This document shows, in pieces, positions 7,545-19,082 of a stretch of 42,099 nt of DNA. Made by a program: the position numbers and the translations under genes. Location: NCBI GenBank assembly GCA_947259245.1, contig CAMYLP010000017.1, positions 1 to 42,099 of the forward strand, written 5' to 3'. Each line of letters opens with the position of its first letter. The stretch's first letter is position 1. Under the pieces are notes generated by a model. The model was not told the origin of the DNA. It saw only the letters and a program-made list of their open reading frames with translations, and made no database searches. The stretch is from an uncultured Patescibacteria group bacterium. GTDB taxonomy: Bacteria; Patescibacteriota; Minisyncoccia; Phycocordibacterales; UBA12088.

Positions 7545-7563
7545 AACGTCTACGGACATGAAA

Positions 7564-7591
7564 GCAGCCCCGACTCGTTTGTCGGGGCTGC
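7564..7591. terminator. Bidirectional hairpin terminator
   Basis: A perfect 11-bp stem (GCAGCCCCGAC / GTCGGGGCTGC) with a 6-base loop sits between two convergent genes. The T-tracts are weak on both sides. Confidence 0.7.
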
Positions 7592-7595
7592 GGTA

Positions 7596-8084
7596 TCAAA
7601 CCTTCACCTTCCTGTACGTAGTGTGCTCGAGCATCCAGTGGGAGGCTCCGCGCAATTGTGCTCTTGCGAAGGGTACGAGCGTACCACATAGCACTAACAA
7701 TGTGCCGAACACCATGTCATGATGGGCTATGAGGTAGAGTCCAAGGACAAGTAGTGCGCCGCTTGCACAGTACTTACTTGCCTCGGTTTCCAGCCGTCTC
7801 TTACCACGCGATTCTCTGATCGAGCGCAGTATCACACAACCGGCGACCAAGAGTACAAGTGCCACTGACACCACCTGGCTAGATACAGATAGCTGCCACG
7901 CCACGCCGCTTAACATGATTGTGGCGGCAAGTGCCACTTCCGAGTGCCATATGATAGCCGCGGAGACTATCGCGAAGAGCGCTGTGACCTGTAGCGCAGT
8001 GTCCGTGCCAAGCAGTGGTGCCAATACTGCAAACAAACCGAAATATGCGCCTAGTGACGCTACATATCTATATTGAACGGTCAT
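7596..8084 (-). CDS. Small polytopic membrane protein, unknown function
   Basis: A 162-aa protein with about five hydrophobic segments in three blocks: residues 9-45, 50-85 and 110-140. A basic cytoplasmic stretch (RSIRESRGKRRLETEASK) sits between the second and third blocks. I recognise no family. The start is well supported: AAGGAGG lies eight bases before the ATG, one of the best Shine-Dalgarno sequences in the window, and a TTGACT/TATACA promoter is about 45 bases upstream. It ends at the shared terminator with the S9 peptidase. Confidence 0.75.
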   Translation of the reverse strand: MTVQYRYVASLGAYFGLFAVLAPLLGTDTALQVTALFAIVSAAIIWHSEVALAATIMLSGVAWQLSVSSQVVSVALVLLVAGCVILRSIRESRGKRRLETEASKYCASGALLVLGLYLIAHHDMVFGTLLVLCGTLVPFARAQLRGASHWMLEHTTYRKVKV

Positions 8085-8126
8085 GCCACACCTCCTTCGT
8101 CAACATGTGACAGCGAAACTTGACAA

Positions 8127-8154
8127 TGTATACTATGTATTGCCTTAAAGTCAA
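8127..8154 (-). promoter_or_regulatory. Promoter of the 162-aa membrane protein gene
   Basis: Minus-strand TTGACT (8154-8149), 16-base spacer, TATACA (8132-8127). The leader is about 35 bases and contains AAGGAGG. A weaker TTGACA/TATTGT pair lies about 50 bases further upstream. Confidence 0.65.
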
Positions 8155-8239
8155 GGGGCTGATGGAGAGAACCTCTACCCTGGACAATATACCCCTAGTT
8201 GTAGGTGTCAATATGCCTAGGGTGCATAATCAAACAGGC

Positions 8240-8424
8240 AAGAAATAGCCCGCAGTGGCGGTACTGCGGGGCTGAAACAGCAACAATGCTGCTGTTGGAA
8301 TTTGGGAGCGATGAGAAGTCCGGTATCGACTTTATGGCCATCCCTTACGGGACCGACCATACAACCCGGTTGAGGTTGTCATAAGCCCTTGGAGGAGAGG
8401 TCCCCTCCTGCACTCATCGCTTCT
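8240..8424 (-). ncRNA. Candidate structured ncRNA, unidentified
   Basis: An independent transcription unit of about 185 nt without an ORF. A consensus promoter precedes it and an intrinsic terminator ends it (stem 8247-8256/8263-8273, then ATTTCTT). A closing helix (GAAGCGATGAG with CTCATCGCT) encloses four hairpins. One is GGAGG/CCTCC. The second is ACAACC/GGTTGT. The third is TATGGTC/GGCCATA capped by TCCC-GTAA-GGGA, where GTAA is a GNRA tetraloop. The fourth is AAGTC/GACTT. A further stem AACAGCA/TGCTGTT precedes the terminator. I looked for and did not find tmRNA, RNase P, SRP, 6S or 5S signatures. Confidence 0.6.
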
Positions 8425-8431
8425 GATTCGA

Positions 8432-8459
8432 ATACTACCACACACTGATTTTTTGTCAA
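8432..8459 (-). promoter_or_regulatory. Promoter of the candidate ncRNA
   Basis: Perfect -35 TTGACA (8459-8454), 16-base spacer, TAGTAT (8437-8432). The predicted +1 is near 8424, exactly where the closing helix of the RNA begins. Confidence 0.65.
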
Positions 8460-8563
8460 TGTCAACTCTGTGTGTATCTTGTTGGGGTCGACACCCTCAC
8501 GGGTGTCTCCCAAATAACGTTGCGGACCATGCGAGAAGCTCACTGCTCGCCTTGCTGCGCTCA

Positions 8564-8641
8564 CGAAACCCTCGGTTTCGCGTTGCTTCCTACACGGGGA
8601 AACGAGGTTTTCCCAGACCCCCTTCCCGGTTCGAGACCGGC
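8564..8641 (+). repeat. Palindromic element copy A (T-arm-ended)
   Basis: Hairpin 1 CGAAACC-CTC-GGTTTCG (8564-8580), a 14-base spacer, hairpin 2 GGGGAAAC-GAG-GTTTTCCC (8596-8614), then a tail from 8615 ending GGTTCGAGACCGGC. That tail contains a tRNA-like T-loop. The same plan recurs at 18977-19063 with different stem bases. Further hairpins precede it (GACACCC-TCAC-GGGTGTC at 8490-8507 and GCGAG/CTCGC at 8531-8550). Minus-strand reading frames across it look non-coding. Confidence 0.6.
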
Positions 8642-8700
8642 ATATAGCATCGGGAACGACAAGGGGGTGGCAAACCGCATCTGTTACCATTGCGGTGGAC

Positions 8701-8817
8701 ATGACAGGTAGAATATTGAACCAGCTAAAGGACTGCCTCTCTCGGTTCTGGGAATGCTACAATAAGGTCACCAAACATACAAAAAGCCCTTGCAAATACT
8801 TTGTAGAAGGAAGGTGA
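8701..8817 (+). CDS. Possible 38-aa peptide
   Basis: ATG at 8701 to TGA at 8815-8817, starting MTGRILNQLKDCLSRFWECY and rich in Lys, Cys and aromatic residues. A second tiny frame (GTG 8814 to TGA 8870, 18 aa, ending VSKRPPA) overlaps its stop, with AAGGAAG directly before the GTG. The stop of the second frame lies in the loop of the terminator at 8859-8884. There is no good Shine-Dalgarno for the first frame and no recognisable family. This may simply be part of a short RNA. Confidence 0.2.
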   Translation: MTGRILNQLKDCLSRFWECYNKVTKHTKSPCKYFVEGR

Positions 8818-8858
8818 AAGAGGCACAAGTGTTCTACAAGTACTCTGTAAGTAAGCGA

Positions 8859-8884
8859 CCACCGGCCTGAGGGCCGGTGGTTTT
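8859..8884 (+). terminator. Intrinsic terminator
   Basis: A perfect 9-bp stem CCACCGGCC/GGCCGGTGG with loop TGAG, followed by TTTT. Confidence 0.75.
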
Positions 8885-9076
8885 GGAAAAGGCCCGCTGG
8901 GCGGGCTCACACTCTGTGAAGGATGATGCCGAGCATGTGGCGCCTTAACTGCCCTGCGTATACATGTTGGTGGTTAAAACAATGCGCCTCGAGTACCTAA
9001 AGCCGTGCGGAATGTGAGATAGATACGGCGTCACCTTCATACGTACACTCCAGCTATGCTGGAGGTTTATAGGATT

Positions 9077-9109
9077 AAGAAAAGAGACCGCAAGCAAGCT
9101 CGCGGTCTC
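9077..9109 (-). terminator. Intrinsic terminator of the 115-aa gene
   Basis: Minus-strand stem GAGACCGC/GCGGTCTC (9109-9102 with 9091-9084) followed by TTTTCTT, 21 bases after the stop codon at 9130. Confidence 0.8.
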
Positions 9110-9129
9110 ATCGAAGTTCGTGATAAGTA

Positions 9130-9477
9130 TCAAAACGACTCAATTTTGATGATACTGTGTGTGGCTGGGCAGCCTAAACCTGGTGATTTTATGTAGTGTA
9201 TGTTTTTTACTTCCATTTCTGCCCATACGCTTGGTGGCTTGCGTGTGTGAAAGATGAAGCTCTTCACGTCCCCATTGTTTGCCTGGTAGATGAGCTGGAA
9301 GTCTTTTGTGTCGCTGCCCCAGTGTATGTTGCTCCCCAGAAAATTCAGAGCCTTAACTTTTCCAGGGCCTGTTGTTTCTGGTTGAAGAAAGTCTGGCAGA
9401 AGTTCAGGCTTTGTTTTATTGATCGTACCTAATGTAATGCCCACAATTACGAACAGAATCATGGAATATTTGATCAT
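9130..9477 (-). CDS. 115-aa membrane-anchored or exported protein, unknown function
   Basis: An N-terminal hydrophobic segment (MIKYSMILFVIVGITLG) acts as a signal or anchor, and about 95 residues would lie outside the membrane. No family is recognised. The gene is visibly more AT-rich than its neighbours, which may point to transfer. It is a self-contained unit: a TTGACA promoter overlapped by a 24-bp palindrome, a leader of about 45 bases, AAGGGGG eight bases before the ATG, and its own terminator. This suggests a regulated accessory gene. Confidence 0.7.
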   Translation of the reverse strand: MIKYSMILFVIVGITLGTINKTKPELLPDFLQPETTGPGKVKALNFLGSNIHWGSDTKDFQLIYQANNGDVKSFIFHTRKPPSVWAEMEVKNIHYIKSPGLGCPATHSIIKIESF

Positions 9478-9528
9478 ACATAACCCCCTTGGGTTTGCAA
9501 AGTGAAGAAAAACTCACCGTCTGCTAGA

Positions 9529-9557
9529 ATAATGACATAATACACATATTATGTCAA
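9529..9557 (-). promoter_or_regulatory. Promoter overlapped by a 24-bp palindromic operator
   Basis: TTGACA (9557-9552), 17-base spacer, CATTAT (9534-9529). The perfect inverted repeat TGACATAATA-N4-TATTATGTCA (9533-9556) fills the space between the -35 and -10, the expected place for a dimeric repressor of the 115-aa gene. Confidence 0.55.
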
Positions 9558-9621
9558 TAATAAGCTCAATGTTGCCTGGTCTATAGAAAAATGAACTCTA
9601 GAAAATAGGCTCGTTTCACGG

Positions 9622-14899: not shown

Positions 14900-15338
14900 A
14901 TCTCTGTCTATGCAGCTGTCGGGGTCCGAAGGTTCCCAAGAAGAGTCTTGGGGTCAGACCCCGCGTAGCTGAATATCAGCCCCCTGATCCAGTCACGCTT
15001 TAAGCAAACTTGTTCCTTGCCCGAACCCGTTTGCTCTGATTACATAAATACCACCATATACCATATATACCAATGTGCATATGTAGTAAAAATAAGGACT
15101 GGTCTTTGAGGTCAACAGATGTCCATTGTCCAAGACTTATCGGCTCATTAGAGCCGTAAAAATAGATGTGTCTCACATGACCTTTGAAATGACTTTTATG
15201 TAAGTGGACCTCGTGGAGGCATTTTTACTTGACAAACACAGGGGTATTGGAAACCGAACCGTCGGACACGCATCAGCATGGCTACCATCATCGAACTGTA
15301 GAAGGTACCCTCTTCATGTGCTAGTATCCAGATTATCT
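14900..15338. other. Non-coding region upstream of valS with hairpins
   Basis: No convincing gene. A nested hairpin at 14913-14971 combines CAGCT/AGCTG, CGGGGTC/GACCCCG and an inner CCAAGA-AGAG-TCTTGG. A small palindrome ATCAG-CCCC-CTGAT is at 14976-14989. A further hairpin CGGCTC-ATTA-GAGCCG lies at about 15139-15154. I see no T-box signature for valS. Confidence 0.5.
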
Positions 15339-18976: not shown

Positions 18977-19063
18977 CTGAGAACCACTCGGTTCTCAGCG
19001 CTACGCTGCTCTCCTCCACGGGGGAACTCCCGTTCTCCCGACCCCCTTCCCGTTCGAGACCGG
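18977..19063 (+). repeat. Palindromic element copy B (T-arm-ended)
   Basis: Hairpin 1 CTGAGAACC-ACTC-GGTTCTCAG (18977-18998), a 20-base spacer, hairpin 2 CGGGGGAAC-TCCC-GTTCTCCCG (19019-19040), then the tail GACCCCCTTCCCG ending GTTCGAGACCGGC (19063). It matches the plan of 8564-8641 with compensating base changes. It lies between the hsp20 terminator and tRNA-Phe, in the opposite orientation to the tRNA. Confidence 0.6.
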
Positions 19064-19082
19064 CCACAACACGGAATCAAAA

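Follow-up and report, generated by a model that had tools for sequence, protein, structure and literature searches.

The candidate RNA lies in a 42,099-nt window (the whole stretch of DNA that was analysed) from an uncultured Patescibacteria group bacterium, within a gap between an S9 peptidase gene and a tRNA-Ala gene. The gap measures ~2.1 kb here (7545-9620) versus ~150 bp in the nearest relative (G004), where the gene order is S9 peptidase (65% identical), tRNA-Ala within ~150 bp, response regulator, and histidine kinase. On present sampling, the ~2.1-kb insert appears to be species-specific. It holds a 162-aa orphan ORF, the candidate RNA, a dispersed repeat, a relic IS200-type element, and a 115-aa orphan ORF (Table 1), and Pfam and NCBIfam gave no match to either of the orphan ORFs. 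The relic has hairpins at its left end (9010-9076) and its right end (8836-8892), with no transposase between them, and its ends align with both ends of an IS200-like element (L043) in the same-genus genome G005, which encodes a Y1_Tnp TnpA (Pfam E 2e-32). Partial matches to the dispersed repeat occur in roughly 55-60 of the 397 genomes sampled from the order, and the repeat terminates in CCGGTTCGAGACCGGC, which resembles a tRNA T-arm. Its second copy adjoins tRNA-Phe, and a copy in genome G001 (L039) adjoins a tRNA-like sequence. The T-arm-like end and the tRNA-adjacent copies suggest that the repeat may be a mobile element associated with tRNA 3' ends. The candidate RNA was rejected as a part of either the relic or the repeat, as it lies outside both and matches neither.

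Table 1. Coordinates of the candidate RNA, its predicted parts, and neighboring features in the window.
Feature	Position	Strand	Description
Promoter-like site	8432..8459	-	TTGACA-16-TAGTAT, extended -10 TG
Predicted transcript	8238..8425	-	~185 nt, from promoter/terminator positions; fold z -5.1
Five-way-junction domain	8307..8421	-	closed by P1; z -4.5
Hairpin P2	8391..8408	-	7 bp, loop ACCU; predicted fold
J2/3 unpaired joining segment	8380..8390	-	11 nt, AAGGGCUUAUG; predicted fold
Hairpin P3	8361..8379	-	7 bp, abuts P4; predicted fold
Hairpin P4	8334..8360	-	7+4 bp, GNRA (GUAA) tetraloop; predicted fold
Hairpin P5	8316..8332	-	5 bp, 7-nt loop, abuts P1; predicted fold
3' hairpin	8276..8296	-	9 bp, 3-nt loop AUU; predicted fold
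Intrinsic-terminator-like hairpin and U-rich tail	8240..8273	-	-14.9 kcal/mol
Downstream orphan ORF	7596..8084	-	162 aa, hydrophobic, Shine-Dalgarno AAGGAGG
Relic or non-autonomous IS200/IS605-type element	8840-9073	-	end hairpins align with G005 element
Dispersed repeat	8535-8641; second copy 19004-19064

The initial annotation had reported a consensus promoter without naming its strand, and our analysis places this element on the minus strand, where TTGACA (8459-8454) is separated by a 16-nt spacer from TAGTAT (8437-8432) and a TG one base 5' of TAGTAT provides an extended -10. With 10 of 12 matching positions, the site is sigma-70-like as judged by consensus match, and only three sites with at least 10/12 matches and a TG occur in the whole window when both strands are counted. 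At the other end, the terminator-like hairpin (8273-8247) is stable, is followed by AUUUCUUG, and has a mediocre U-tract; the region shows no excess of terminator-like sites (3 observed versus 1.4 +/- 1.5 expected). The predicted transcript of ~185 nt is bounded by this promoter-like site and the terminator-like hairpin. No frame with a Shine-Dalgarno sequence was found inside the candidate RNA, in agreement with the reported lack of an ORF, although tiny peptides could still be encoded. The segment is single copy and has a G+C fraction of 0.55, versus 0.45 and 0.47 in its flanks.

The predicted fold of 8425-8238 (-80.0 kcal/mol) comprises a closing helix around four hairpins, followed by a 3' hairpin and the terminator-like hairpin. 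The closing helix, P1, is formed by 9 bp (8421-8413/8315-8307) with a mean pair probability of 0.94. Apart from the outer terminator stem (0.66), every helix has a mean pair probability of 0.85-0.99, and the fold is almost unimodal. This architecture reproduces the closing helix of 8-10 bp around four hairpins, one with a GNRA loop, that had been described before, together with the additional hairpin on the 3' side (8296-8276). Besides J2/3, the junction contains UGCA at J1/2 and one A as joining segments, with no linker at P3/P4 or P5/P1, and the two linkerless contacts would permit coaxial stacking. As read from the sequence, GGGCU in J2/3 is complementary to AGCCC at the base of the terminator, on its 5'-arm side, and the two could possibly form a 5-bp pseudoknot.

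None of 2000 dinucleotide-preserving shuffles folded as well as the full unit (z -5.1), and two of 2000 matched the 115-nt core (z -4.5). On the opposite (plus) strand, the corresponding values were z -2.8 and z -2.4, and a plus-strand RNA was rejected in view of this weaker fold and the lack of a good promoter and terminator pair on that strand. These nominal p-values overstate the case, because a reader had selected the region from 42 kb. In a coarse scan of the window, 13 of 1000 126-nt tiles (~1.3%), tRNA and rRNA tiles among them, reached z <= -4.25. Perfect 9-bp helices of P1's span number ~6 in the window, about the chance expectation, so that the closing helix alone is unremarkable. 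The strength of the case therefore lies in the combination of a strand-specific fold with a promoter and a terminator rather than in a single part. Separately, the strongest fold of the coarse tile scan was found on the plus strand at 14953-15078 (z -6.5).

The initial annotation could not assign the RNA to a known class, and our searches lead to the same result: no Rfam 15 family matched the region at gathering thresholds, and a lenient Rfam scan of 8000-8900 gave a best score of 15.1 bits against a gathering threshold of 39. The size and multi-branch shape would fit a housekeeping RNA (RNase P RNA, tmRNA, 6S, or SRP) that has diverged strongly, but the genes for RNase P RNA (RF00010; G000:C6:18440-18785, 131.8 bits) and tmRNA (RF00023; G000:C6:35510-35892, 62 bits) sit elsewhere in the genome, which largely refutes the housekeeping reading for these two. 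Furthermore, such an RNA would be expected within the genus, and the candidate has no match in the five genomes of its genus that were searched. 6S and SRP RNA were not located in the genome. The empty lenient scan, the RNase P RNA and tmRNA genes found elsewhere, and the lack of a match in the genus make a housekeeping identity very improbable.

The candidate RNA had no homolog by BLASTN in 60 relatives, and a covariance model built from a single sequence, searched against 60 relatives and against the 12 nearest genomes, recovered only the window itself; five genomes of the same genus and four other members of the family thus gave no homolog. The searches use a fast first pass, so very diverged homologs could escape them. 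Applied to 397 sampled genomes of the order and 384 sampled genomes of the class, the covariance model returned only one match besides the window, L022, which lies in a different genome of the order (20.2 bits, E 0.03 per genome). The segment AGGGCUUAUnACA after a hairpin is common to L022 and the candidate RNA; in L022, however, this shared segment is helical in the locus's own fold and overlaps a possible 71-aa ORF. We rejected L022 as a homolog and regard it as a chance match because its structure is incompatible and such an E-value is expected by chance across nearly 400 genomes. The L022 region itself (L022:1249-1900) is intergenic, between ATPase-like and nucleoside diphosphate kinase-like genes (names judged from translations), and contains two segments with very strong predicted structure (z -5.3 and -5.8), both with GGGG..CCCCCGAGGGyUUA and neither with an Rfam match. 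Exact-pattern matches in two viral contigs were likewise attributed to chance, one (L033) having no covariance match and the other (L034) a single hairpin at 10.9 bits. Using the plus-strand ORF frame of the RNA as a proxy query, nothing was retrieved from genome (GTDB) or viral contig collections, and phages and plasmids yielded nothing meaningful.

With no homologs found, none with compensatory base changes could be identified, and the stems are without comparative support. The suggestion of a novel RNA, if taken to mean a new family, is not supported by the conservation search, which found no homolog in the genus, the family, or the order and class samples. The same search showed no broken stems, since the locus is absent from the relatives, and the RNA is for this reason not formally refuted.

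As a cis-regulatory leader of the attenuator or riboswitch-like kind, the candidate RNA would have a folded domain that decides whether the terminator forms ahead of the 162-aa membrane-protein-like ORF, which lies on the same strand with its ATG at 8084, ~155 nt past the terminator. The shared strand, the start codon ~155 nt on, and the succession of an aptamer-like multi-helix domain and a terminator-like hairpin are consistent with such a role, and in a possible but weakly supported variant the GGGCU of J2/3 would pair with AGCCC as an antiterminator pseudoknot. The lysine riboswitch, a multi-helix-junction riboswitch with a terminator, likewise has a five-way junction, and the candidate resembles it in that a terminator-like hairpin follows a compact, closed junction. 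Unlike this type, however, the candidate has no useful Rfam score and no nested alternative structure, and the next gene is apparently separately promoted. Blocking the 3' arm of the terminator in silico left the rest of the fold unchanged, which argues against a nested antiterminator, and a 5-bp complement easily arises by chance. Past the RNA's terminator, the 162-aa ORF has promoter-like sites of its own (TTGACA/TTGACT, at 8211 and 8154), which together with its strong Shine-Dalgarno sequence favor a stand-alone RNA over a leader. No homologous pair of gene and RNA was found; for the ORF itself, a search of 40 genomes gave one weak, unconvincing match of 14 bits, and the genome and viral contig collections gave no relatives. 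We regard a leader as unlikely, and the initial view that the RNA precedes no gene as a leader is favored by the separate promoter-like sites and the Shine-Dalgarno sequence of the ORF, with the possible attenuator pseudoknot speaking against it.

A stronger competitor, although still an unlikely one, is that the segment is non-functional and hairpin-rich, left behind by mobile or repeat DNA within the species-specific insert, and that its promoter-like site arose by chance. The near-absence of the stretch from the closest relative, the IS200-type relic and dispersed repeat within the insert, and the lack of conservation all point this way, but the RNA segment matches none of the insert's repeats, and its fold is strand-specific, with a promoter and a terminator accompanying it on that strand. 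Overall, the anatomy fits a stand-alone, terminated, structured transcript, and our preferred reading is a species-specific gene for a small RNA, encoded by the minus strand, at a probability of about 0.5, ahead of non-functional sequence and then of a leader. For such a gene, RNA polymerase would start near 8425 and stop near 8240, releasing an RNA of ~185 nt. Its five-way-junction body would probably be rigid, with P3 stacked on P4 and P1 on P5, thereby presenting the 11-nt J2/3 segment and the hairpin loops. As an sRNA with a regulatory or a protein-binding role, it would most likely use these exposed segments to act in trans.

In a previous survey, 31 intergenic regions (IGRs) of T. lienii were without homologs ('unnamed' IGRs; PMC6429828). 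The candidate RNA is likewise GC-rich, intergenic, strongly structured by prediction, and without homologs, and differs in that promoter and terminator signals are also visible, the comparison being one of kind only. Orphan structured intergenic RNAs are an already known kind, of which the candidate is a good specimen and not a class. That it belongs to a new class of compact five-way-junction RNAs (trans-acting sRNAs or ligand-sensing leaders) in a sparsely sampled lineage, with other members unsequenced or outside the genomes sampled, appears improbable. The RNA is a credible candidate for an orphan structured sRNA, and because it has no homologs, it constitutes neither a family nor a demonstrably new class. 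Were it transcribed, this bacterium with a reduced genome (~0.95 Mb) would possess an sRNA that is highly structured and specific to its lineage, and the case would show that reduced genomes gain genes for structured RNAs in variable inserts next to tRNA genes.
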